A program made the position numbers and the translations under genes. 64,000 nt of DNA. Origin: Cyclobacteriaceae bacterium (GTDB lineage Bacteria; Bacteroidota; Bacteroidia; Cytophagales; Cyclobacteriaceae). The stretch lies in NCBI GenBank assembly GCA_019638395.1, contig JAHBTX010000003.1, positions 620,001 through 684,000 of the forward strand. The letters run 5' to 3'. The notes beneath the pieces are model-generated. The model was given only the letters and a program-made list of their open reading frames with translations. It was not told the origin of the DNA and searched no databases. The first letter of the stretch is position 1; each line of letters begins with the position of its first letter. Shown piece after piece: positions 655 to 13,503 of the stretch.

Positions 655-2559
655 GTGCGCGCTTTTTTTTTATTTGTTTTGTTTACTATCGGCTGGGATG
701 CCCTGTCTCAAACAGCTACCACTCAGGATAATACCGATGAGCGGATTTTTTTTCTGAACGAACTGGAATTCTTAGTCGACTCTACCAACTCTCTTTCATT
801 CGAACAAATTTCGCAACCGCAGGCTGCTCAAAAGTTTAAACGCAGGCCGGCCTATCAAAACAAAGATTATCGATCTGGCGAATCATACTGGATTCGCTTT
901 TCTGTAGCGCATATTGCAACAGAAAAAGTTTGGCTGATTGAGTTTTATGATCAAACGATCGACCACATTGAAGCCTACATTCCTAAACCAGACGGCACGT
1001 ACGAAAAGCGAGTGATGGGCGATGCCTATCCGTTTCAGAATCGAAAATTCGGCCATAAAAATTTTGAAGTGCAGCTTTACCTGCACGATCCTTCCATACA
1101 ATATTATTACTTCCGCGTTCAATCGCACGAGTTTGCCGACATCCGCATTGCCTTTCGGTCTGTGGATCGCTTCATCTATTACTCACTCAACGAGTACTTC
1201 CTTTTCGGAACATTCTACGGCATGATTGTGATTATTGCGCTGTACAACTTTTTGGTATTTCTGGCCATTCGCGAAATCAAGAATGTTTATTATATCTTCT
1301 ATATTGTAAGCGTAGCGCTTTATGCCATGAGTTTAGATGGCGTAGGATTTCAATATATATGGCCCAACCATCCGCAATGGAATGATTATGCTTCGGGTAT
1401 CTGCCTGTATTCGGTAATACTATGGGCTCTTGTTTTTACCCGAAGATTTTTAAGTACCCGTGCAAAAGCGCCCCGCATCGATCTGGCGCTTAAGGTTATG
1501 ATTGTGGTACGTACACTTGTGTTCTTGTTCGAGTTATTCTTTTACCCGGAGTTTTTTGCTTTCCGGTTTATTGAAATCTTACCGCTATCACTCATTTATT
1601 ATGCTGGCGTGTATGTATTAATGCGCGGCTATCGCCCGGCCCGGTATTTCGTAATTGCGTACGGGTTGTTGCTGATTGGCTTCTTTGTTCGCACACTGGT
1701 GTTCTTCAATATTATAGCGCTTACTACGGTTTCGCACTACAGTTTGCACTTCAGTTTTGTGGTTGAAATGTTATTCCTCACGTTTGCGTTGGGCGATAGA
1801 ATTACGATTTTAAAAGATAATCGCGATCGGGCATTGCGCAGAATCATCCATCAGCATGAAGTGAACATGGCTCTAAAAGATAAGGTTACCCGCGAGTTGG
1901 AACAAAAAGTGAGCGAACGAACCATCGAACTGAATTTGAAAAATGCCGAACTAGAAGAAAGTAATGACCGCCTGACTCGGCAAACTTCCGAAATTAACAA
2001 GATCAATTCGGTGCTTGATCTTGATAACTGGAAATTAAAGAACCGGATAAAAGAAGTGTTAGAAGAGCGCTTGCTCGAAAAAACTATGGATTATGAGGAG
2101 TTTAAGACGCTTTATCCGGATACATTAGCCTGCCATCGGTTTTTGGAAGATTTAAAATGGCAGGCAGGGTTTACCTGCCGTAAGTGCGCAAACAACAAAT
2201 ATTTTGATGGAGCTCAGAAATTTGCCCGCAGGTGTACCCGCTGCGGCTATAACGAATCAATAACCGCATACACCGTTTTTCATGGCATAAAATTTCCAAT
2301 CGATAAGGCATTTTACATTGCTTATCTGGCCGTTACCGGAAGGAAGGGGGCAACATTAGAGGCACTGGCAGCGCAATTAGATGTAGGAGTTAATGCAATT
2401 TGGGGTTTTCGGAAGAAGGTTACAGATCGTATTGCCGAGCTTAGTGAACAAGGCAATGAAATAACAGCCTCCCGGTGGCAGGATATTATTCTTGATTTTG
2501 AGCAAAAAAGTCTAAGACCAAAATCTAAGTCGGCTAAACATGAAAACGTTTCCGAATAA
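655..2559 (+). CDS. 7TMR-DISM membrane receptor fused to IS1595-type transposase zinc-ribbon/HTH domain
   Basis: This 634-aa protein starts at GTG; an in-frame TGA at 634 rules out anything much further upstream. Seen: signal peptide (1-19); an extracellular beta domain of 7TMR-DISMED2 type (about 28-172); seven hydrophobic segments (about 183-205, 211-228, 245-264, 278-297, 303-324, 330-350, 360-382); a charged coiled coil (385-476). Then comes EFKTLYPDTLACHRFLEDLKW leading to a four-cysteine ribbon (Cys508, 511, 527, 530), VFHGIKFPIDKAF, and a helix-turn-helix-like LAAQLDVGVNAIWGFRKKV. That C-terminal block follows the whole N-terminal DNA-binding region of IS1595/ISXO2 transposases (Zn_Tnp_IS1595), but no DDE catalytic domain follows. 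7TMR-DISM proteins normally end in kinase, cyclase or other signalling modules. Inference: a membrane receptor with a domesticated transposase DNA-binding output. It lies 225 bp upstream of the SusC gene, the natural candidate target. Confidence 0.88.
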   Translation: MRAFFLFVLFTIGWDALSQTATTQDNTDERIFFLNELEFLVDSTNSLSFEQISQPQAAQKFKRRPAYQNKDYRSGESYWIRFSVAHIATEKVWLIEFYDQTIDHIEAYIPKPDGTYEKRVMGDAYPFQNRKFGHKNFEVQLYLHDPSIQYYYFRVQSHEFADIRIAFRSVDRFIYYSLNEYFLFGTFYGMIVIIALYNFLVFLAIREIKNVYYIFYIVSVALYAMSLDGVGFQYIWPNHPQWNDYASGICLYSVILWALVFTRRFLSTRAKAPRIDLALKVMIVVRTLVFLFELFFYPEFFAFRFIEILPLSLIYYAGVYVLMRGYRPARYFVIAYGLLLIGFFVRTLVFFNIIALTTVSHYSLHFSFVVEMLFLTFALGDRITILKDNRDRALRRIIHQHEVNMALKDKVTRELEQKVSERTIELNLKNAELEESNDRLTRQTSEINKINSVLDLDNWKLKNRIKEVLEERLLEKTMDYEEFKTLYPDTLACHRFLEDLKWQAGFTCRKCANNKYFDGAQKFARRCTRCGYNESITAYTVFHGIKFPIDKAFYIAYLAVTGRKGATLEALAAQLDVGVNAIWGFRKKVTDRIAELSEQGNEITASRWQDIILDFEQKSLRPKSKSAKHENVSE

Positions 2560-2643
2560 TTAACATCTGCCACGCATTGCGATTAAATGTTTTTTAATAA
2601 AAAAATTAATGCCTCAAGTCCTTCAATTATACATGCTAACGTT

Positions 2644-2682
2644 TGAAATCAATGTTTTTATTCAATGAAAACATGATTTTCG
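2644..2682. repeat. Imperfect inverted repeat upstream of susC
   Basis: Between the receptor gene and susC the sequence has ATGTTTT and AAAACAT arms (7 bp each) flanked by GAAATCA and GATTTTC, separated by about nine bases. The outer arms pair only with a one-base shift. It could be an operator for a dimeric regulator or just AT-rich coincidence. No clear TAnnTTTG promoter box was found nearby. Confidence 0.3.
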
Positions 2683-2784: not shown

Positions 2785-5700
2785 ATGTCTATGATGAGAA
2801 AACTACTATTAACAGCCTTGTTTTCAGCTACTTTGCTGACAGTAATCATGGCTCAGGACCGGTTAGTATCCGGAAAAGTTACCTCTGCAGATGATGGATC
2901 CACCCTGCCGGGGGTAAGTGTGTTGGTGCAGGGTACCACAAAAGGTACCGCTACGGATGCAAACGGGGGGTTTTCGTTAACCCTTGCATCAGGCGAAAAT
3001 ACCCTGATTTTCAGTTTTATTGGGTATAAAACCCAAACTGTTGAGGTAGGTAGCCAATCAACAATCAACATTGTACTGGAAACAGACATTACTTCTTTGG
3101 ACGAAGTGGTGGTGGTAGGTTATGGTGTTCAAAAGGAGAAAGACCTTACTTCTTCTATTACTACTATTAAGGCAACCGAGTTAATGAAAACACCACAAGG
3201 CCAGGCTATGCAAGCCTTGCAGGGTAAAGTACCGGGTGTGCAAATTGTTAATAGTGGGGCTCCGGGCGCATCACCAACAGTACGTATTCGCGGTATTGGT
3301 TCGTTTCCGGGCTCAGGAAATACCAATCCTTTATACGTAGTGGATGGAATGTTTTTCGATAACATCGACTTCCTCAACCCATCTGATATCGAGTCGATTT
3401 CTGTAATGAAAGATGCCTCAGCGGCAGCTATATATGGTGTGCGCGCGGCTAATGGCGTGGTGCTCATTACAACAAAATCCGGAAGCAAAAACATGGCCCC
3501 TGAAATAACCTATGAAGGTTATTATGGAACACAGATAGCGCAAAACGTGCTGAAGATGGCTAACGCAGAACAATTCACCAACATGGCTATCGAATCAGGT
3601 GTGCCGGCCGATGCACTTTACATTCAAAATGCCATGCAGCGCTACGGGCGCAGCAGAATAAATCCGAACGTTCCCGATGTAAATACGGACTGGTACAAAG
3701 AAATTTTAAGACCTGCTGGTATTCAAAACCATAGTATTAACATGGCTGGTGGTGATAACAAGGCAACGTATGCCGTGGGTGCCAGCTACTTTGCGCAAGA
3801 TGGTATTCTGGATATGGAAAACAGCTATGAAAGATTTAACCTGCGCATGAAGTTAGATTACAACGCAACCGATTGGTTAACCGTAGGCGGTAACGTGATT
3901 ATTAGTAATGCCACGCGTTACGATCAGGCCGCCTCGGCCTGGAATGTTGCCTACTTTGCTGTGCCGGTAATGCCGGTTATTGACGAGCAAAATGTAAATG
4001 CAGTTCCAACCCGTTATGCCAGTGCACAAACCCTTGGTTATCGCGATGGTAAGAATCCGTTTCCGTACATGGACTATACCAAAAATCTGCAGCGCATACG
4101 CAAGGTGCTGGCAAACTTCTATGTAAAGTTTGATTTGATGCCGGAACAAAAGAATAAGCTCACGTTTATGTCGGCCTATAACAATGGTTCTACTTTCCTT
4201 AACACACGAAATGTCGGTTTACCATTTTTTGTGAGCGATGCCTTGCAACGAAACATCTCTACCATCAGCAAAAGCAACGACACCTATTTTAATCAGATTT
4301 GGGATAACGTGCTAACGTATAACGAATCGTTTGGAAACCACAACATAACCGCTATGGCCGGAGCTTCGTTCCGCGATGAATCGTGGGAGTATCTTACTGC
4401 AGCGGCTACTGATTTGATTACACCCGATCAGATTAATTCGTGGTATATCAGCCGCACAGGTGCTGCTGCCAACACACGAACCACCTCCGATGATGGAACC
4501 CGCCAATACGGAATGTCATACTTCGGTCGCGTGGCATACAACTTTAAAGATAAATACCTGCTGTATGGAACCATGCGTGCTGACGGTACCTCCAAGTATC
4601 AGGATAAGTGGGGATATTTTCCGAGTGTAGGTGCTGGTTGGGTTATTTCAGAAGAAGACTTTATGAGTGTACCGGCCATCAACTACCTGAAGCTTAGAGC
4701 AAGCTGGGGTAGATTAGGAAATAGCAGCGTGGCTGCCAGCGATGGTAACTTTACAACCAGTAGTGTAAACGTAGCCATTAACGGAGTGCAATATGCCGGT
4801 ACGTTAGCCAATAACACCTTTACTTATTTGAAATGGGAAGTAGTAGAGGAAACTAATATTGGTGCAACGGCAACCATCTTAAATAATAAGTTAACGTTGG
4901 ATGCTGACTATTTTATCCGCGATACAAAAGATGCAGTAATTCCGGTTCAGGTTCCCCTGATTGGTGGAACAGTAAGAAGACAAGTAGGTGTAATTCGTAA
5001 CTCAGGTTTTGAATTAGCACTAAATTGGAATGATAATATCGGATCGGATATCCGCTACAACGTAGGGCTTAACATCGGTACCCTTAAAAATCAAGCCCGC
5101 GATTTGTACGGCCAGGAATACATTGACGGTGGCTCTGCCGAATTCCGTCAGCGCACGATAGTAGGCAATCCATTGGCAGCTTTCTTTGGTTACGAAGTTC
5201 TTGGGGTATATCAAACTGCAGAAGAAGTGGCGGCCGATCCTACAGCGGTGGCACAGGGTGGTATTGTACCGGGCGATTTTAAATACAAAGATCAGAATGG
5301 CGATGGTGTAATTAACGATGCCGACCGTGTGGTCCTTGGCTCATACCTACCCACCTTTAGCTATGGCGCTAACCTGGGCATCAACTATAAGAATATCGAC
5401 TTCTCGCTTAACCTGATGGGCCAAAACGGAAACAAAATTTTGAATCGTAAACGTGGTGAAATAATCTGGACACCCGATGGCAACATGGATGCTGATCTCG
5501 CAATCAATCGCTGGCACGGGCCGGGTACTTCTAACAAGTATCCTTCTGCGGCCGGATTGCGCAAAAGCTGGAATCAAAAGATGAGCGATTATTTTGTTGA
5601 AGATGGTTCTTTCTTCCGCATTCAGAATATCAGCATCGGCTATAGCCTGAAAGGAAAAGAACTACTGGGCATACGCGTTCCGCAAACCCGTATATCGTTT

Positions 5701-5826
5701 ACAGCCGAGCGTCCGCTAACCGTTTTCCAATACAATGGCTTTAATCCGGAAGTGGAAAACGGAATTGACACACAAACGTACCCTATACCGGCTGTTTACA
5801 CTGTTGGACTGAATGTTAAATTTTAA
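2785..5826 (+). CDS. SusC/RagA family TonB-linked outer-membrane transporter
   Basis: A 1013-aa outer-membrane importer that takes up oligosaccharides with energy from TonB. Visible parts: signal peptide ending near MAQ (about 24); a carboxypeptidase-like regulatory domain (about 25-105, GKVTSADDGSTLPGVSVLVQ); a plug with the SusC signature (NPLYVVDGMFFDNIDFLNP, then IESISVMKDASAAAIYGVRA); a long beta-barrel; and an acidic DQNGDGVINDADR loop common in SusC proteins. It ends in aromatic YTVGLNVKF, as expected of a barrel. The length is normal for the family. The SusD gene follows after 14 bp, so the two should form the usual SusCD complex. ATGs at 2785, 2791 and 2794 are all possible starts. 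Substrate is inferred from the downstream hydrolases, not from this protein. Confidence 0.95.
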   Translation: MSMMRKLLLTALFSATLLTVIMAQDRLVSGKVTSADDGSTLPGVSVLVQGTTKGTATDANGGFSLTLASGENTLIFSFIGYKTQTVEVGSQSTINIVLETDITSLDEVVVVGYGVQKEKDLTSSITTIKATELMKTPQGQAMQALQGKVPGVQIVNSGAPGASPTVRIRGIGSFPGSGNTNPLYVVDGMFFDNIDFLNPSDIESISVMKDASAAAIYGVRAANGVVLITTKSGSKNMAPEITYEGYYGTQIAQNVLKMANAEQFTNMAIESGVPADALYIQNAMQRYGRSRINPNVPDVNTDWYKEILRPAGIQNHSINMAGGDNKATYAVGASYFAQDGILDMENSYERFNLRMKLDYNATDWLTVGGNVIISNATRYDQAASAWNVAYFAVPVMPVIDEQNVNAVPTRYASAQTLGYRDGKNPFPYMDYTKNLQRIRKVLANFYVKFDLMPEQKNKLTFMSAYNNGSTFLNTRNVGLPFFVSDALQRNISTISKSNDTYFNQIWDNVLTYNESFGNHNITAMAGASFRDESWEYLTAAATDLITPDQINSWYISRTGAAANTRTTSDDGTRQYGMSYFGRVAYNFKDKYLLYGTMRADGTSKYQDKWGYFPSVGAGWVISEEDFMSVPAINYLKLRASWGRLGNSSVAASDGNFTTSSVNVAINGVQYAGTLANNTFTYLKWEVVEETNIGATATILNNKLTLDADYFIRDTKDAVIPVQVPLIGGTVRRQVGVIRNSGFELALNWNDNIGSDIRYNVGLNIGTLKNQARDLYGQEYIDGGSAEFRQRTIVGNPLAAFFGYEVLGVYQTAEEVAADPTAVAQGGIVPGDFKYKDQNGDGVINDADRVVLGSYLPTFSYGANLGINYKNIDFSLNLMGQNGNKILNRKRGEIIWTPDGNMDADLAINRWHGPGTSNKYPSAAGLRKSWNQKMSDYFVEDGSFFRIQNISIGYSLKGKELLGIRVPQTRISFTAERPLTVFQYNGFNPEVENGIDTQTYPIPAVYTVGLNVKF

Positions 5827-5840
5827 TTACAGATAAGGTT

Positions 5841-7385
5841 ATGAAATTACAAACTAAACTCTTTAAAGTAGCTGCCTTAAGTACGCTTATGTTCGCGGCA
5901 ACTTCATGCCACGATCTGCTAAACGAACCACCCGAAAACACATCGTTTGTAGAAGATACAGACTATACCAATACCGAAAATATGATTTTACCCTTGCTGG
6001 GTGCTTACGGTAATTTTTATTCCCGTGGGTGGGAGGATATTCCATTAATTTCAGTTCGGGGCGATGATGTAAATGCCGGAGGGTTGGGCGATCAACAGCC
6101 CTATGCCGATACCGACAATTTTGTATATGATCAGGGATATTGGATGTATAACTCACTTTGGCAAAACTTCTTTGGCGATATTATTCGCATGCACTCTGCC
6201 ATGGAACAAATTGCACTCTATAAAGTGCATGCACCCAACCCGGCTGTGGCCGATCAGTATATTGCCGAGGTTAAAGTAATGCGTGCTTTCTTATTGCTTA
6301 ACCTGGCACGTGTTTGGGGAAATGTATTTATTCCGCAATCATCCGATCCATCTGAAATTCTGGTTGCACAACTGGCCACCAAAGATGAAGTGATGCTGCA
6401 CATTTCAAACGAAATGGATGCGGCTATACCCATGCTGCCTAACGTGCGCCCTAACCAGCGCACCGATATACCCGGGGGCATTACCCGCCACACTGCTTTG
6501 GCGGTTAAGGCAATGGCAAACCTGGAGTTGAAAGACTATCAGAAAGTAGCAGATGCCACATCGCTGATCATCAGTTCGAATTTATTTAACCTGCATGGCG
6601 ATTTTTACGAACTGTTTAAGTTAGATGGAAAACTTAACAACGAAAATTTGTTAGAGTTGCAATACTCTGATTTCGGACAAGGATCGGGGCCAGCCATCAC
6701 TTATCTGTTTGCATTCTTTGGCCCTCAAAACTGGACACCCGCAGTTACAGGTTCTGGTGGTGGATGGGGCTTCTACGAACCAAGTATGAAATACATCAAG
6801 TTCATGTTAGATCGCAACGAAACGGTAAGACTTGAAACCAGTGTTATTTTCACGAATCGGGGTATCGAGGCAATCAAAGCCGATCCGAATTATGCTACGT
6901 TGCCTGCGTGGGTTTCAAACACAACCCGCGATAACGACCGCTTCAATGATTATCCACGCGCTATGTTTGCAAGCGGTAAACACTACTGGCCATCTAATCA
7001 GCTTACAACCGGCCGCACGGAGTATGGTACCAACAAGAATTTTATTTGCATTCGGTATGCTGAAATATTGTTAATGCATGCCGAAGCATTAACACGCGGA
7101 GCAACCTCATCGGCTATGACTGCCGATGCGGCTGTAAATATGGTGCGTAACAGAGTAGGGTTGGGTAACCTTACTAACGTAACAAGTCAACAAGTAATGG
7201 ATGAGAAATTTGCCGAACTGGCAATGGAGTGGGGTACCCGCTATTACGACTTAATCCGGTTGGGTAACTTAACGGAGTTGAATTATGATGGCAGAACTTT
7301 TAATGCCTCGAAAACCTATTTGCCTTATCCGCAAGCGCAGGTAGATCAATTACCGGTTTTGAGAACGGCAGGAAGTGGTAATTAA
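5841..7385 (+). CDS. SusD/RagB family surface glycan-binding lipoprotein
   Basis: This 514-aa lipoprotein is the lid partner of SusC. It has a lipoprotein signal with Cys23 (lipobox region AATSC), an N-terminal SusD-like helical region, and the characteristic C-terminal block IRYAEILLMHAEAL followed by EWGTRYYDLIRLG. It is anchored in the outer membrane facing outward and captures oligosaccharide for the transporter. It follows susC by 14 bp and precedes the LamG lipoprotein gene by 25 bp, so one transcript is likely. Length is normal and no defect is visible. Confidence 0.95.
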   Translation: MKLQTKLFKVAALSTLMFAATSCHDLLNEPPENTSFVEDTDYTNTENMILPLLGAYGNFYSRGWEDIPLISVRGDDVNAGGLGDQQPYADTDNFVYDQGYWMYNSLWQNFFGDIIRMHSAMEQIALYKVHAPNPAVADQYIAEVKVMRAFLLLNLARVWGNVFIPQSSDPSEILVAQLATKDEVMLHISNEMDAAIPMLPNVRPNQRTDIPGGITRHTALAVKAMANLELKDYQKVADATSLIISSNLFNLHGDFYELFKLDGKLNNENLLELQYSDFGQGSGPAITYLFAFFGPQNWTPAVTGSGGGWGFYEPSMKYIKFMLDRNETVRLETSVIFTNRGIEAIKADPNYATLPAWVSNTTRDNDRFNDYPRAMFASGKHYWPSNQLTTGRTEYGTNKNFICIRYAEILLMHAEALTRGATSSAMTADAAVNMVRNRVGLGNLTNVTSQQVMDEKFAELAMEWGTRYYDLIRLGNLTELNYDGRTFNASKTYLPYPQAQVDQLPVLRTAGSGN

Positions 7386-7410
7386 TTCAAACCTCAAAAA
7401 AATTAATAGT

Positions 7411-9117
7411 ATGAGAACATTTAAAAATATTATTGCAGCAATAGCCATGATGGGCGTTGTGGGTGCCTGTAATGAGGGCATCGACCCGATTCGGGCTATA
7501 GCCCCGGGCCCGGATGAAACTTCGCCTGTTATTACTGTAACCTATCCGTTAGAAGGTACTGAAATTAAAGTAGCTGAAACTGTGGTTCCGATTAACATTA
7601 AGTTTGAAGTAACAGACGATATTGAAATTAAGAGTATCGTGGTAAAGATGGATGGAAATAATGTGGCAACTTTTAACGAGTTTCTGGATTACCGCAGAGC
7701 GGTTAAAGATATCGTGTATCCAAACCTGACAACAGGCACACACGTGCTAACCATTGAAGCTACCGACATGGAGAATAAGGTTACCACCAAAAACATCAAC
7801 TTCGAAAAAACGCCTCCGTATATTCCGGTTTTTGCGGGTGAAACTTTCTACATGCCGTTTGATGGAATATATACCGAACTAATTACCATCAGCAATGCAA
7901 CTGTAGTAGGTATGCCACAATTTGCCGGAGAAGGTAAGCGTGGTGGTAATGCTTATAAAGGTGCAACCGGTGCGTATTTAAGTTATCCTACGGCCGGTTT
8001 AACAGGTACAGAGTTTAGTGCTTCGTTCTGGATGAAAGTAAACAGTACGCCCGATCGTGCTGGCGTTTTGGTAGCGGGCCCTCCCGGTATTAATACGCGT
8101 ACCCAGGGTTTCCGCTTCTTCCGCGAAAATGCCGGTGGTAAGCAACGCTTTAAGTTAAATGTGGGCAATGGAACTTCCGACTTCTGGTTTGATGGTGGAG
8201 TTAATGCCGATGTGGTTCCCAACACAGGCGAGTGGGTTCACCTTGCTTTCTCTATCTCGGCCACCAATGCTGCGGTTTATATTAATGGCCAGGTAGCATC
8301 GCAAGGGCCGCTTACAGGCGGCATTAACTGGACAGGTTGCGATGTATTCTCTATCATGTCTGGTGCACCGCGCTTTACCGAGTGGAACCACAACTCAGAT
8401 CTAAGCTACATGGATGAACTGCGGTTTTTCAACAAAGCACTTACACAAGCCGATGTGTTGGCAATTATCGGTAGCGATTATTCACCCAAGTATGATGGCG
8501 AAGTATTCTATATGCCTTTCGATGCCGACTATGGCGATTTAGTAGGGGGCAGCAACGCAACTGTGGTTGGTACACCTTCTTTGGATACCGGTAAAAAAGG
8601 GAAAGCGTTTAAAGGTGCAACTGATTCATACCTGACTTATCCTATTGCCGATTTAGGATTAGGCAACGCATTCAGTATTTCGTTCTGGTACAAAGCCAAT
8701 ATTACTCCTGATCGTGCCGGTATTCTTACCGTAGGCCCACCCGGTATAAATACACGCACCAGTGGCTTCCGTTTGTTCCGCGAAAATGGTGCGAACGTGG
8801 TTAAAAGTAATGTGGGTATTGGAACAGGCGATTCCTGGAATGATGGTGGAGCTATATCAGCTACTGATTGGGTATTCGTTACCATGGTGGCCGGTGGCGG
8901 ATCGCATGGTATTTATGTTAATGGTACACTGTTAAGGGCCGAATCAACCTTTACAGGAAACCTTAGCTGGGCCGACTGTGAATTTATTTCGATTGGATCG
9001 GGTGCACCTCGTTTCACCGAGTGGGGCCACCTTTCCGACAATAGCTTGATTGATGAGATAAGAATATTTAATCGCAAACTTTCGCAAGCGGAAATTCAGC
9101 AAATGATGAACGATTAA
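7411..9117 (+). CDS. Surface lipoprotein with Ig-like domain and two tandem LamG domains
   Basis: 568 aa from the ATG at 7411, chosen because it gives a clean lipoprotein signal with Cys20 (VVGAC); an upstream in-frame ATG at 7375 overlaps susD and adds no useful signal. Residues about 35-135 form an Ig-like domain (VITVTYPLEGTEIKV...). Two concanavalin/LamG units of about 190 residues follow, each opening with FYMPFD and carrying GPPGINTRT and GAPRFTEW, so the domain duplicated internally. The gene sits in the SusE/SusF position of the locus and lacks any hydrolase motif. The likely role is binding glycan at the surface and feeding the transporter. Binding specificity cannot be read from the sequence. 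Confidence 0.85.
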   Translation: MRTFKNIIAAIAMMGVVGACNEGIDPIRAIAPGPDETSPVITVTYPLEGTEIKVAETVVPINIKFEVTDDIEIKSIVVKMDGNNVATFNEFLDYRRAVKDIVYPNLTTGTHVLTIEATDMENKVTTKNINFEKTPPYIPVFAGETFYMPFDGIYTELITISNATVVGMPQFAGEGKRGGNAYKGATGAYLSYPTAGLTGTEFSASFWMKVNSTPDRAGVLVAGPPGINTRTQGFRFFRENAGGKQRFKLNVGNGTSDFWFDGGVNADVVPNTGEWVHLAFSISATNAAVYINGQVASQGPLTGGINWTGCDVFSIMSGAPRFTEWNHNSDLSYMDELRFFNKALTQADVLAIIGSDYSPKYDGEVFYMPFDADYGDLVGGSNATVVGTPSLDTGKKGKAFKGATDSYLTYPIADLGLGNAFSISFWYKANITPDRAGILTVGPPGINTRTSGFRLFRENGANVVKSNVGIGTGDSWNDGGAISATDWVFVTMVAGGGSHGIYVNGTLLRAESTFTGNLSWADCEFISIGSGAPRFTEWGHLSDNSLIDEIRIFNRKLSQAEIQQMMND

Positions 9118-9197
9118 AATCTCGTTCAACGAAGATCGTGATGGGTAAAATACTCATCATATATAGGGTTAATTGTTGTTTAGGAGTTTGTTTACTT

Positions 9198-9224
9198 AAG
9201 AGGATACCGAAAAGGTATCCTCTT
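9198..9224 (+). terminator. Strong intercistronic hairpin before the GH144-type gene
   Basis: AAGAGGATACC (9198-9208) and GGTATCCTCTT (9214-9224) are perfect 11-base complements around a GAAAA loop. The tail TACTTACG is not U-rich enough for a standard intrinsic terminator. It may be an attenuator, a processing site or a stabiliser that sets unequal expression of the binding proteins and the hydrolases. It also argues that the glucanase gene starts at 9237 and not at the in-frame codon at 9138. Confidence 0.6.
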
Positions 9225-9236
9225 TACTTACGGGTT

Positions 9237-11210
9237 ATGGTACAGCGATTTTTTCTTGGTGTTTTTCTGGGTTCAGTTGTTTTCTTGTCGGGTTGTAAGG
9301 AGGATGAAAACGTTGCAAACCTGAAGTTGGTTAATGCATTTGTTGGGTCGGATCAATTGGATGTTTCGGGTGTAATAAATGCTAACCTCCCCACCGATCC
9401 GATTTTTACTTTACTGTTTTCAGCACCGGTTAATACTACTACCGCCACCACGGCTGTTCAGCTAAGCAGCAATGCAGGCCAGATCAACACTACGCTTGAT
9501 TTTCTCAATGATAATAAAACGATCAATGTTCAACCTGTTGGCGCGCTATCTCAAAGCACCACGTATAAGCTCACCATTACCGATCAACTTCAAGGTGTAA
9601 ATGGTGCCGCATTTACCACGCTTGAAATAACTTTTAAAACTGTAGCCGGAAGTCTGCAATTGGTAGCTACCCGCATCAACAACGAAACAATAACAACAGC
9701 GCGTGCCACGGGTGTTCCGGTTACCAACGTTCAGGTAGAATATGATTTTACCGTACCACTCGATCCTACAACTGTTAACAACACTACATTTAGAGTAACA
9801 GGGCCCACAGTGGTGGCGGTCTCCGTTCAATTGCTGAACGATAATAAAACCGTAAGGCTTACATCAACCTCAACACTTCAATACCTAAAACGATACACAG
9901 CTACGATTTCGAATGCGTTGAAAGGAGTGGAAGGACAATCGTACGCTGGCGCACAGCGCGAGTTCTATACAGTTTTTGATACCACACCTAAATTCCCCAC
10001 CATATCCGATGAAGAGTTGCTTACGTTGGTACAGCAACAAACCTTCAAATACTTTTGGGATTTTGCACACCCGGCCAGCGGTATGGCGCGCGAACGAAAC
10101 ACTTCGGGCGACCTGGTAACCAGCGGTGGTTCCGGTTTTGGATTAATGTCCATCATTGTAGGAATTGAACGCGGATTTATTACCCGCACACAAGGCATTG
10201 AACGCTTCGATAAAATTCTTGATTTTCTGGAAACAGCCGATCGTTTTCATGGTGCGTGGTCGCACTGGATAAACGGCAATACCGGCAAGGTAATAGCCTT
10301 TAGTGCCAACGATAATGGTGGCGATCTTGTAGAAACAGCCTTTTTAGTACAAGGATTGCTTACCGTGAGGCAATATTTAAACGCTGGTAATGCAACCGAA
10401 AATCAGCTAATAAGCCGGATTAACACCCTCTATCGTGGTGTGGAATGGGATTGGTACCGGAGAGAAAACCAAAACGTTATGTATTGGCATTGGTCGCCCG
10501 ATAAGGGGTGGACCATGAATTTGCCGATACGCGGTTGGAACGAAGCCCTGATGGTTTATGTGCTCGCGGCTGCATCGCCCACGCACACCATACCCAAAAT
10601 AGTTTATGACAACGGCTGGGCAAATAATGGGGGCATACGCAATGGTAATGTTTATGAGGGCATTACGTTGCCACTGGGTTATCCATTTGGTGGCCCCTTG
10701 TTTTTATCGCAGTACTCATTTCTTTCCTTAAACCCGCACAACCTGGCCGATGCTTACTGTACCGATTATTTTAATCAGAACAGAAGTCATTCATTAATCA
10801 ATTACAACTATTGCATTCGCAACCCGCGTGGCTATGTTGGGTACAGTAGTTCAAATTGGGGCTTAACGGCCAGCGATAATCATCAGGGCTATAATGCCCA
10901 TTCGCCCACCAACGATTTAGGTGTGATAACGCCAACGGCTGCATTATCGGCCTTTCCATACACACCTACTGAATCAATGGAAGCACTAAAATTCTTCTAT
11001 TATACATTGGGCGATAAGTTGTGGGGCCCCTACGGTTTTTACGATGCCTTTAATATTACAGAAGATTGGTATGCCAATTCTTTCCTGGCAATCGATCAGG
11101 GGCCTATAATTATAATGATCGAAAACCACCGCACCGGATTGCTATGGAATTTATTTATGTCGGCACCGGAAGTACAAGCGGGGCTAACCAAACTGGGTTT
11201 TACATATTGA
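9237..11210 (+). CDS. PF10091 glucanase of GH144 type (predicted endo-beta-1,2-glucanase), lipoprotein
   Basis: 657 aa from the ATG at 9237, which gives a lipoprotein signal with Cys20 (VVFLSGC); the longer frame from 9138 runs through the intercistronic hairpin. Two SusE/Big_5-like beta domains (about 25-270) precede an all-alpha catalytic domain beginning LLTLVQQQTFKYFWDFAHP. It continues with GGSGFGLMSIIVGIERGF, an acidic DNGGDLVETAFLVQGLL and a C-terminal ENHRTGLLWNLFMS. This is the Pfam 'glycoamylase' family (PF10091). Despite that name, characterised members, including one from Chitinophaga, are endo-beta-1,2-glucanases (GH144). The GH3 gene follows after 7 bp, matching the known pairing with sophoro-oligosaccharide beta-glucosidases. 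Substrate is therefore a family-based prediction. Confidence 0.85.
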   Translation: MVQRFFLGVFLGSVVFLSGCKEDENVANLKLVNAFVGSDQLDVSGVINANLPTDPIFTLLFSAPVNTTTATTAVQLSSNAGQINTTLDFLNDNKTINVQPVGALSQSTTYKLTITDQLQGVNGAAFTTLEITFKTVAGSLQLVATRINNETITTARATGVPVTNVQVEYDFTVPLDPTTVNNTTFRVTGPTVVAVSVQLLNDNKTVRLTSTSTLQYLKRYTATISNALKGVEGQSYAGAQREFYTVFDTTPKFPTISDEELLTLVQQQTFKYFWDFAHPASGMARERNTSGDLVTSGGSGFGLMSIIVGIERGFITRTQGIERFDKILDFLETADRFHGAWSHWINGNTGKVIAFSANDNGGDLVETAFLVQGLLTVRQYLNAGNATENQLISRINTLYRGVEWDWYRRENQNVMYWHWSPDKGWTMNLPIRGWNEALMVYVLAAASPTHTIPKIVYDNGWANNGGIRNGNVYEGITLPLGYPFGGPLFLSQYSFLSLNPHNLADAYCTDYFNQNRSHSLINYNYCIRNPRGYVGYSSSNWGLTASDNHQGYNAHSPTNDLGVITPTAALSAFPYTPTESMEALKFFYYTLGDKLWGPYGFYDAFNITEDWYANSFLAIDQGPIIIMIENHRTGLLWNLFMSAPEVQAGLTKLGFTY

Positions 11211-11217
11211 ATTTTGA

Positions 11218-13503
11218 ATGAACAAAACTATGAAATCACTTTATCCGCTCTTATGCATTGTGCTGCTCGCTTCGTGTAACGGGCCAGTACAAAAGCAAGC
11301 GGGCATTGATGCTCGTGTAGATTCCGTGCTTAGTTTAATGACGTTGGAAGAAAAAATCGGTCAACTCAATCTTCCATCGGCAGGGCAGTTTACAACAGGA
11401 GCTGCAGCTAACTCCGATATCGCAAAAAAGATTGAACAAGGGCAAGTGGGCGGATTGTTTAACATCAAACGCGTGGCAGCAATACGCGAGATGCAGCAAA
11501 TAGCCGTAGAAAAAAGTCGTTTAGGTATTCCACTCATGTTTGGAATGGATGTAATTCATGGTTATGAAAGTGTGTTTCCCATTCCGTTGGGATTAAGTTG
11601 CAGTTGGGACATGGAGTTGATAGAACGCAGTGCGCGTATTGCTGCAACCGAAGCCAGTGCCGATGGCATCAACTGGACTTTTTCTCCCATGTTGGATTTA
11701 TCGCGCGACCCGCGTTGGGGTCGCATCTCAGAAGGAAATGGTGAAGATACCTATTTAAGTTCCCAAATCGCGAAAGCCATGGTGCGCGGCTACCAGGGCG
11801 ATGATCTTACCGCTAATAATACCATTATGTCGTGTGTAAAGCATTATGCCTTGTATGGTGCCGCTGAGGCGGGACGCGATTATAACACAACCGACATGAG
11901 CAGATACAGGATGTATAACGAATACTTTCCACCATACAAAGCAGCGGTTGATGCCGGTGCCGGAAGCATCATGGCCTCGTTTAATGAAATTGATGGTGTG
12001 CCGGCTACAGCCAACAAATGGTTGCTAACCGATGTGTTGCGCAAGCAATGGGGCTTTAAGGGGTTTGTGGTTTCAGATTATACCGGAGTAAGCGAAATGA
12101 TCGCTCACGGTATTGGCGATTTACAAACAGTGTCGGCACGTGCTGTACAAGCCGGGTTGGATATGGATATGGTAAGTGAAGGATTGTTAACCACATTAAA
12201 AAAATCGGTTGACGAAAAGAAAATTACAGAAGCCGAAATTACAGAAGCCTGTCGTAGAATTCTGAAAGCAAAATTTCAATTGGGTTTGTTCGATGATCCT
12301 TATAAGTATTGCAATGAAGAACGGGCTAAAGCGGAAGTGTTTACTGCTGCCAACCGCGCTGAGGCCCGCAAGGCTGCAGCCGAAAGTTTTGTGTTATTAA
12401 AGAATGAGGGCAATATACTACCGATAAAAAAAGCCGGAACGATAGCCGTAATAGGCCCCCTGGCTAACACCCGCGAAAACATGACCGGAACGTGGAGTGT
12501 TGCAGCACGTTTTTCAGAATCCATTTCATTGATGGATGGCTTAACCAAAGCGGTTGGCAACTCAGCAAAGCTTGTATATGCACGTGGTTCTAACCTGCAC
12601 GAAGATGCAGCCATTGAAGAACGGGCTACCATGTTTGGCAAATCGCTTAATCGCGATAAGCGATCGGCCGAAGACATGCGCACCGAAGCTGTTCGTATTG
12701 CACGTTCGGCCGATATAGTGGTGGTGGCAATAGGCGAAGCCGCAGAAATGAGTGGCGAGGCAAGTAGTATTACCAATCTGGAGTTACCACAAACGCAACG
12801 CGAATTACTCAAAGCCTTGCTTCAAACCGGCAAGCCGGTTGTAGCAGTTTTATTTACAGGCCGGCCTTTGGTATTGAAGTGGGAAAATGAAAATATTCCG
12901 GCAATGCTGAATGTTTGGTTTGGCGGTAGCGAGGCTGGGGATGCCATTGCTGATGTATTGTTTGGTTTGGTAAATCCTTCGGGCAAGCTAACCACCACCT
13001 TTCCGCAAAACGTGGGGCAAATACCGTTGTATTATGCGCATAAAAATACGGGCCGGCCGTTAAGTGGTCCGTGGTTTCAAAAATTCCAATCCAATTATAT
13101 TGACGTTTCGAATGAACCGGTTTATCCATTTGGTTTTGGTTTAAGTTATTCCACGTTTATGTATAGCGATGTAAAGTTGGATAAAACTACGATCAATCAG
13201 TCCGAAACACTTACGGTTACAATAGATGTTACCAATGCCGGCCAGTACGATGGGGCCGAGGTGGTTCAATTGTATGTGCGCGATTGGGTAGGTTCTGTTA
13301 CACGTCCGGTTAAAGAGTTGCGTGGGTTTAAAAAAGTAATGATCCGGGCGGGTGAAACAAAAACAATAACCTTTCAACTTACTAAGGAAGATCTTTCATT
13401 CTACAACTATGATTTGAATTGGGTAGCAGAACCCGGTGAGTTTAGTGTGTTGGTAGGTGGCAACTCCAGGGATGTAAAGGAGGCGAAGTTTACGCTGCAA
13501 TAG
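11218..13503 (+). CDS. bglX: GH3 family beta-glucosidase (BglX-like), lipoprotein
   Basis: This 761-aa enzyme releases glucose from the non-reducing ends of oligosaccharides. It has a lipoprotein-type signal with Cys20 (VLLASC). The catalytic (alpha/beta)8 domain contains KHYALYGAAEAGRDYNTTD and the nucleophile block GFVVSDYTG with Asp287. The alpha/beta sandwich carries GEAAEMSGEASS, whose Glu514 is the expected acid/base. A C-terminal fibronectin III-like domain (VKELRGFKKV... LSFYNY) completes the normal GH3 layout. It is the last gene of the SusCD locus. Activity on beta-1,2-linked oligosaccharides is inferred from the adjacent GH144-type gene; GH3 specificity is broad. The start could also be the ATG at 11230. 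Confidence 0.93.
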   Translation: MNKTMKSLYPLLCIVLLASCNGPVQKQAGIDARVDSVLSLMTLEEKIGQLNLPSAGQFTTGAAANSDIAKKIEQGQVGGLFNIKRVAAIREMQQIAVEKSRLGIPLMFGMDVIHGYESVFPIPLGLSCSWDMELIERSARIAATEASADGINWTFSPMLDLSRDPRWGRISEGNGEDTYLSSQIAKAMVRGYQGDDLTANNTIMSCVKHYALYGAAEAGRDYNTTDMSRYRMYNEYFPPYKAAVDAGAGSIMASFNEIDGVPATANKWLLTDVLRKQWGFKGFVVSDYTGVSEMIAHGIGDLQTVSARAVQAGLDMDMVSEGLLTTLKKSVDEKKITEAEITEACRRILKAKFQLGLFDDPYKYCNEERAKAEVFTAANRAEARKAAAESFVLLKNEGNILPIKKAGTIAVIGPLANTRENMTGTWSVAARFSESISLMDGLTKAVGNSAKLVYARGSNLHEDAAIEERATMFGKSLNRDKRSAEDMRTEAVRIARSADIVVVAIGEAAEMSGEASSITNLELPQTQRELLKALLQTGKPVVAVLFTGRPLVLKWENENIPAMLNVWFGGSEAGDAIADVLFGLVNPSGKLTTTFPQNVGQIPLYYAHKNTGRPLSGPWFQKFQSNYIDVSNEPVYPFGFGLSYSTFMYSDVKLDKTTINQSETLTVTIDVTNAGQYDGAEVVQLYVRDWVGSVTRPVKELRGFKKVMIRAGETKTITFQLTKEDLSFYNYDLNWVAEPGEFSVLVGGNSRDVKEAKFTLQ

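Follow-up and report, generated by a model that had tools for sequence, protein, structure and literature searches.

The gene at positions 655..2559 (+) of the window, as we call the whole 64,000-nucleotide stretch of DNA analysed, encodes a seven-helix membrane receptor fused to an IS1595-type zinc-ribbon/HTH domain. The protein is, with high probability, a membrane-anchored one-component activator of the adjoining susCD-lectin-glucanase-GH3 operon, acting via two direct-repeat boxes. These boxes, which lie 64-66 bp apart in the susC promoter, are new here, and comparison of loci shows both that the two-box element exists and that it occurs together with the receptor. A preliminary description of this DNA had proposed that a domesticated IS1595 domain serves a membrane receptor as its output and may control the adjoining susC. 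This proposal is supported because the fusion is conserved and the receptors group beside DDE-bearing IS1595 transposases in a tree, because the linkage to the same susCD/glucanase operon is conserved, and because the two-box element tracks receptor and operon even where these lie ~0.5 Mb apart or are divergent.

The receptor-regulator gene (ORF call) has a GTG start and encodes 634 aa. The protein comprises a 7TMR-DISMED2 extracellular sensor domain (residues 36-165, 760..1149, +; PF07696, 6e-26), a 7TM domain (residues 180-382, 1192..1800, +; PF07695, 9e-45, with helices in the AlphaFold model), a long helix taken as a coiled coil (residues 383-469, 1801..2061, +; S-helix-like ERT, AlphaFold model), an IS1595-type zinc ribbon (residues 492-532, 2128..2250, +; PF12760, with Cys508, 511, 527 and 530) and an HTH region common to IS1595 transposases (residues 546-595, 2290..2439, +; NF033547 in part, and profile A2). 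DISMED2, 7TMR-DISM_7TM and Zn_ribbon_IS1595 are the only Pfam matches at E<=1. The last of these, PF12760, reaches 3e-6 with the full protein, above the Pfam cut-off, and 2e-7 with the C-terminal piece alone. PF12762, the DDE domain against which the preliminary description had also suggested checking the C-terminus, has no match in the window receptor (Pfam) or, at E<=0.001, in the members of alignment A1, and Pfam finds no catalytic domain in the receptor. The HTH (residues 546-595) is also hit by NF033547, the IS1595 model of NCBIfam, with 6e-4 and 19.7 bits, far short of the cut-off of 75. In profile A2 the zinc ribbon and HTH align with the N-terminal ~120 aa of DDE-bearing transposases. 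The layout originally reported (DISMED2, 7TM, coiled coil and IS1595 zinc ribbon/HTH, with no DDE domain) is confirmed by Pfam, model and alignment, and the four cysteines and both peptides quoted with them were found exactly as given. The zinc-ribbon/HTH domain is predicted to be DNA-binding.

A structure prediction, likewise proposed earlier, was run with AlphaFold on alignment A1 (pLDDT 81). The model begins with a hydrophobic helix at the N-terminus, followed by a beta domain, then by seven membrane helices and finally by the C-terminal domain, which reaches pLDDT 90 when modelled alone. The seventh membrane helix continues as a long helix (358-469), and a low-confidence stretch (460-476) lies between this helix and the C-terminal domain. 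Because there are seven membrane helices, the C-terminus would be cytoplasmic if the beta domain is periplasmic. In Foldseek searches, the beta (DISMED2) domain resembles the RetS periplasmic domain (3jyb, E=1e-4; 2xbz, E=1.4e-4) and the membrane part resembles human Wntless (1e-4), with GPCRs appearing from 0.012 on. The C-terminal domain retrieved nothing at E<0.001 among PDB folds, just HTH and zinc-ribbon fragments, and no match below 0.03 among PDB sequences. Within the long helix, R422 and T423, part of the ERT described as an S-helix signature in the accessible part of PMC1592074, are invariant in A1. The segment preceding the C-terminal domain (consensus INSxLDLDNWKLKN) is strongly conserved in the same alignment, and the HTH is conserved together with the zinc ribbon.

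A scan of genome contigs returned 42 related loci, 41 of which have a long frame with two C-terminal CxxC pairs; the one exception, L044, resembles 7TMR-GGDEF proteins. Alignment A1 combines the window receptor with 39 of the 41 relatives (L015, L018 and L044 are omitted). Both 7TMR-DISM domains (PF07695, PF07696) are called in all 40 members and PF12760 in 37 of them (E<=0.001), and the four zinc-ribbon Cys are invariant throughout. Receptor and C-terminal domain also share one frame in 40 of 40 further loci of the order, which were picked from full-length matches. An artefact of assembly or annotation fusing two genes, against which the preliminary description had cautioned, is ruled out, its probability being negligible, because the same single-frame layout recurs in 41 of the 42 returned loci and in all 40 chosen ones. 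The CxxC...CxxC pattern is present in 158 of 158 receptor C-termini (126 distinct), for which a profile match was the entry condition. In at least 57 of the 194 genomes of the order, matches extend into the C-terminal domain (profile column >=600, counted by eye, and including some matches that count a stop inside); several genomes of the order hold three or more matches. Class-wide, the C-terminal-domain profile matches 60 of 295 genomes. In ten of these 60 the match lies in a receptor, with a frame of 623-718 aa, four of the ten being outside the order; most others have frames of ~300 aa.

The tree of 87 C-terminal domains comprises 68 receptors, after thinning, and 19 other ORFs, in part of which DDE was checked. 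Every sampled receptor falls on one side of a branch (100/94), and nearest to the receptors are transposase L054 and then L058-L062. Eight of the ten scanned non-receptor ORFs (157-309 aa) carry a DDE domain; L065 and L068 showed the zinc ribbon alone. The receptor grouping fits a single capture of a transposase domain, which stays unproven because the tree is unrooted. At L065 (1498-2358), the ORF is 287 aa long, with a zinc ribbon and no DDE match, and the C-terminal-domain profile matches four times in its genome, G062.

The gap between receptor and susC measures 225 bp (2560-2784), as first reported. The predicted target operon, all on the + strand, begins with a susC-type TonB-dependent transporter (2785..5826; Plug, CarboxypepD_reg) that clusters with the susC of relatives. 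It continues with susD (5841..7385; PF07980), a lectin-like surface glycan-binding candidate (7375..9117; Laminin_G_3 twice, Big_7), an endo-beta-1,2-glucanase homologue with Big_5 domains (9138..11210; PF10091; PDB 5gzh, E=8e-153) and a GH3 enzyme (11218..13503; PF00933, PF01915). In the PDB ranking of the glucanase homologue, 5gzh is preceded by three "putative glucoamylase" entries and 5gzk. We take the PF10091 enzyme of the window to be GH144. This family is counted among those for beta-1,2-glucan in the part of the literature at hand (PMC12102758). The endo-beta-1,2-glucanase match and the GH3 enzyme together suggest beta-1,2-glucan as the operon's substrate, and the operon under receptor control is probably a beta-1,2-glucan locus.

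The conserved linkage to SusC genes for which the preliminary description had advised a survey was found: susC lies downstream, on the same strand and within 700 bp, in 33 of 43 loci (window counted). The usual order is receptor, susC, susD, another gene (often lectin-like) and the PF10091 enzyme. At L033 the receptor is divergent from its susC; L034, L041, L043, L045, L199 and L206 are receptors without a recognised adjoining susC, and at L022 and L024 the contig ends. Counted by eye, 31 of 78 family genomes have a receptor orthologue (E<1e-220) and 40 a PF10091 gene. The latter is present in 30 of the 31 genomes with a receptor orthologue (the exception is G493) versus 10 of the 47 without. 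Of other regulators, just a TetR gene was observed repeatedly next to the receptor, at five loci of the closest relatives; in the window this TetR-type gene (3-482, -) is divergent from the receptor, and its cluster of five loci includes the window.

Predicted operator box 1, TAAATGTTTTTTAATAAAAAAA (2584..2605, +), comes from the two-box model, and predicted operator box 2, TCAATGTTTTTATTCAATGAAA (2649..2670, +), lies within a conserved 32-bp element (2640-2671). In the window, 114 bp separate box 2 from susC, and the box 2 site ranks first of 127,938 window positions. The 32-bp element of the receptor-susC gaps reads CGTTTGAAATCAATGTTTTTwTTgcGtAAAAA, with a log-likelihood of 402 versus 117-132 in 12 shuffled sets; the search used 29 of 33 gaps, L018 being dropped for its Ns and three others as near-copies. 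The element is the top site of the entire locus, both strands included, in 26 of 33: in this leave-out test all 21 loci with training sites rank first, as do five of the other 12, for which no relatives were removed. The exact 22-letter core occurs a single time in the source genome, at window 2640, and with <=3 mismatches the 22-letter pattern has two matches there versus one for the control. Counted by eye, 17 of the order's 194 genomes contain a 25-letter pattern with <=2 mismatches, versus six for the reversed control; of those 17, only the source genome and G457 are known to have the match beside a receptor. Close relatives alone have the 32-bp form: of 27 further family loci 3 exceed 20 bits, as do 4 of the 8 loci L080-L087.

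The core derived from 64 non-redundant orthologue regions, out of 97 extracted, reads TCAATGTTTTTaAaGCGtaAAA; it scored 367 versus 123 in regions upstream of the receptor and 74-83 in shuffles, in a search where the controls had 40 and 15 starts versus 60 and the upstream control regions were shorter. Among 42 regions with a best site above 12, a second box above 8 bits occurs solely at offsets of 64-66 bp (range scanned, 13-160), and self-repeats scanned without a matrix in the 64 regions are strongest at 66 bp (z 7.4) and 65 bp (z 5.9). With the two-box model, 48 of 64 regions score above the 99% shuffle level (11.7), versus 2 of 64 control regions; its matrix was trained on those 64 regions, and on many of the loci counted. 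Across the 42 loci of the contig scan, a pair above 20 is found at 64-67 bp in 33, and at five other spacings in 1-5. Forty other loci contain no such pair across 1.43 million positions. The pair threshold of 20 was our choice, and the top of 1,280 shuffles reached 21.3, which makes L033 and L205 marginal. Divergent loci are found by the two-box model and missed by the single-box matrix. Measured from the aligned susC start, the end of box 2 is 113-205 bp upstream, with a median of 128, and box 1 lies ~65 bp farther upstream.

The pair accompanies the receptor. It scores above 20 before susC in 37 of 41 receptor loci versus 0 of 8 operons of the same type without a receptor orthologue (Fisher 1.1e-6, relatedness ignored). 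Of the 47 receptor loci entered, 41 have a recognised susC start and six do not; with L201 and L204 taken as the same records as L020 and L033, the count becomes 35 of 39. The four misses are L010 (18.6), L018 (Ns in the gap), L031 (7.6) and L037 (5.0). Regions outside the training set score 36.1 (L198), 34.0 (L035, whose relative L013 was in training), 22.9 (L205) and 21.5 (L033). Ten genomes have the enzyme and no receptor orthologue; eight of their operons were examined, the others being G525 (L208, a partial scan without a susC start) and G481 (a fragment). None of the eight has a pair above 20 before susC, the top score being 13.2, at L191. One pair at L191 (20.6) lies inside a 428-aa ORF matching McrBC, ~2 kb from susC, and was taken as chance.

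Separation of receptor and operon is seen in G512, where the operon lies ~0.5 Mb from the receptor: the susC promoter scores 36.1 (L198), and the receptor's own locus (L206) has no pair. In the divergent loci L033/L204 and L205, weaker pairs (21.5 and 22.9) stand before susC and read towards it. Two other explanations of the motif were excluded. The 3' end of the receptor gene is not its source, since the pair precedes susC in these divergent loci and at L198, and it is not general to susC promoters, since pairs above 20 occur at 0 of 12 susC starts near other family members and in 0 of the 8 receptor-less operons.

In four of the eight receptor-less operons (L192-L195), FecR directly precedes susC, with a sigma-70-type factor in L192, L193 and L195; the gene tested as sigma in L194 is a signal peptidase. 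The STN match of the L194 SusC falls under the cut-off (25.8 versus 28.4 bits), and none is listed at E<=1e-5 for that of L192. Among the few neighbours tested at L190, L191, L196 and L197, there was no sigma factor or FecR. SusC is ~1120 aa long beside FecR (L192-L195) and ~1010 aa beside the 7TM receptor, as in a swap of regulators at one PUL.

In the mechanism that we favour, the periplasmic DISMED2 domain would sense a fragment of a glycan, the likeliest being a beta-1,2-gluco-oligosaccharide. The signal would pass through the 7TM bundle and the S-helix-like coiled coil, and the captured IS1595 zinc-ribbon/HTH domain, as a dimer in the cytoplasm, would engage both boxes, activating the susCD-lectin-glucanase-GH3 operon; no kinase, response regulator or sigma factor would be needed. 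Zinc ribbons can also contact proteins, some receptors have no susC neighbour, and binding of the receptor to the boxes is deduced from sequence. These points favour boxes that are operators of another regulator or a PUL promoter element, with the 7TM zinc ribbon contacting that regulator or RNA polymerase. Such an arrangement is nevertheless unlikely, given that pairs above 20 are absent from all eight receptor-less operons and one occurs in trans at L198, that the HTH is conserved along with the zinc ribbon, and that only TetR recurs beside the receptor, at five loci of closest relatives.

Sequence does not reveal the sign of regulation, so that the receptor might instead be a membrane repressor that holds the susC promoter down and releases it on glycan binding. 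This is quite improbable, as the distance of the boxes from the susC start (113-205 bp for box 2, ~65 bp more for box 1) is more like an activator's position, and SusR, the closest analogue, activates, according to the portion of PMC3878776 consulted. Regulated proteolysis, whereby the C-terminal domain is cut off and acts as a soluble regulator, would suit the low-confidence stretch 460-476 ahead of that domain but is very unlikely in view of the strong conservation of the INSxLDLDNWKLKN region before it and of the lack of any protease gene recurring beside the receptor in clusters of at least five loci.

The origin of the boxes may be sought in the donor element. By eye, the IS ends of the closest multi-copy group (G596; L231 of G696) resemble the boxes, for example L230R and the L032 box. 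Against shuffles, p fell under 0.01 for one of 14 IS ends (L230R, 0.0075) and under 0.05 for a second (L241L, 0.042); among comparison IS ends, one of eight reached 0.015 (L064L, from a distant element). Derivation of the operator boxes from the donor's terminal inverted repeats thus remains a lead. Genome G596 has 15 matches to one IS1595-type transposase (L230, L235-L247, L222); matches other than the query are 43-64% identical to it instead of being identical copies, and several ends read TAATTAGTTATTTA.

Other members of the family have mixed neighbours. Among 20 proteins scanned, glycan-type neighbours comprise GH18, GH9, CE2/deacetylase, GH3 with susCD and sulfatases with susCD; others are PriA, PEP carboxylase, a patatin and an AcrB-type pump. 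Twelve of the 40 loci have a recognised susC start. A role at glycan loci is therefore common, though it may not extend to every member. A self-repeat scan gave no support for the same two-box pattern at these members: their 40 downstream regions peak at 80 bp (z 3.4), no better than the upstream regions at 35 bp (z 3.3). L131, L142, L147 and L148, which lie beside susCD, have their own 80-bp-spaced repeat, TTTTTTTTAARTGATA, in the receptor-susC gap as the best or joint best. The Flammeovirga receptors L041, L043 and L045 show a 14-column insertion in the long helix (A1) and adjoin genes whose lengths correspond to a metal ATPase and to a barrel protein of the outer membrane, with no PUL; the Pfam check for these two was made in L122, a locus with near-identical gene lengths. 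At L127 and L129 three genes come after the member, encoding a sugar kinase of the PfkB type, a protein of 332 aa and a protein of the ADP-ribosylglycohydrolase family. The kinase and the ADP-ribosylglycohydrolase were Pfam-checked in L127, and the gene lengths in L129 are the same.

A broader reading is possible but doubtful: that a receptor of GPCR topology turned into a membrane-bound transcription factor when it captured a transposase's DNA-binding domain, and that the resulting family expanded across Cytophagales as a regulator class of its own for glycan loci (with GH9, GH18, CE2, sulfatase and SusCD neighbours), interchangeable with ECF sigma/FecR and with operators that still resemble the donor's IS ends. 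The receptor itself would place a further class of PUL regulator next to SusR, HTCS and ECF sigma/anti-sigma systems, and it clearly exemplifies how a DNA-binding domain from a bacterial transposase can become a receptor output. The family is large in Cytophagales, its other members often lying beside polysaccharide-degrading genes, and the predicted operators supplied here are testable at once.

With the IS1595/ISXO2 transposases (L054, L058-L062), the receptor has in common the zinc ribbon and HTH (~120 aa); it differs in lacking the DDE catalytic domain, in its fusion to a receptor and in being kept beside a PUL across genera. 7TMR-DISM receptors occur with kinase, GGDEF or PP2C outputs; the sensor and 7TM domains are the same here, whereas the output is a DNA-binding-type domain. 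ECF sigma/FecR/STN-SusC systems and HTCS likewise control PULs by a signal across the envelope, but the receptor has no sigma factor, anti-sigma factor, kinase or receiver, and Pfam found no sigma-70 regions, FecR or STN in the receptor or in the window susC. ChiS controls chitin use. A 7TMR-DISM joined to the ChiS DNA-binding domain is listed in proteobacteria (PMC8092284, in the part available), so that the ChiS family resembles the receptor as a sensor protein, sometimes 7TMR-DISM, with a C-terminal DNA-binding domain. In the same source the ChiS domain is a cryptic HTH of proteobacteria, whereas that of the receptor is transposase-like, with a zinc ribbon, and belongs to Bacteroidota.

The preliminary description had stated that its author knew of no description of a one-component membrane system like this. 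That stands for the DISMED2-7TM-IS1595 layout, of which there was no description among the literature listed, with subscription journals thinly covered; it does not stand for the general kind, which the accessible parts of the sources exemplify by SusR and by 7TMR-DISM with ChiS. In those parts, neither PMC3878776 nor PMC8092284 has a transposase-type DNA-binding domain on a 7TMR-DISM sensor. SusR of Bacteroides is described there as a membrane PUL regulator with a periplasmic sensor and a cytoplasmic DNA-binding domain, which activates; its motifs are predicted to be direct repeats with a spacing of 67 or 77 bp (PMC3878776). By that description, the receptor would work like SusR, which it resembles in spanning the membrane, in lacking a kinase domain and in its predicted operator of two direct repeats, spaced by 64-66 bp instead of 67 or 77 bp (spacing, not box sequence, is compared). 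Unlike SusR, it senses through DISMED2 and 7TM domains and carries an IS1595 zinc ribbon and HTH as its DNA-binding-type domain, and it is found in Cytophagales and a few other Bacteroidia, whereas SusR is found in Bacteroides.
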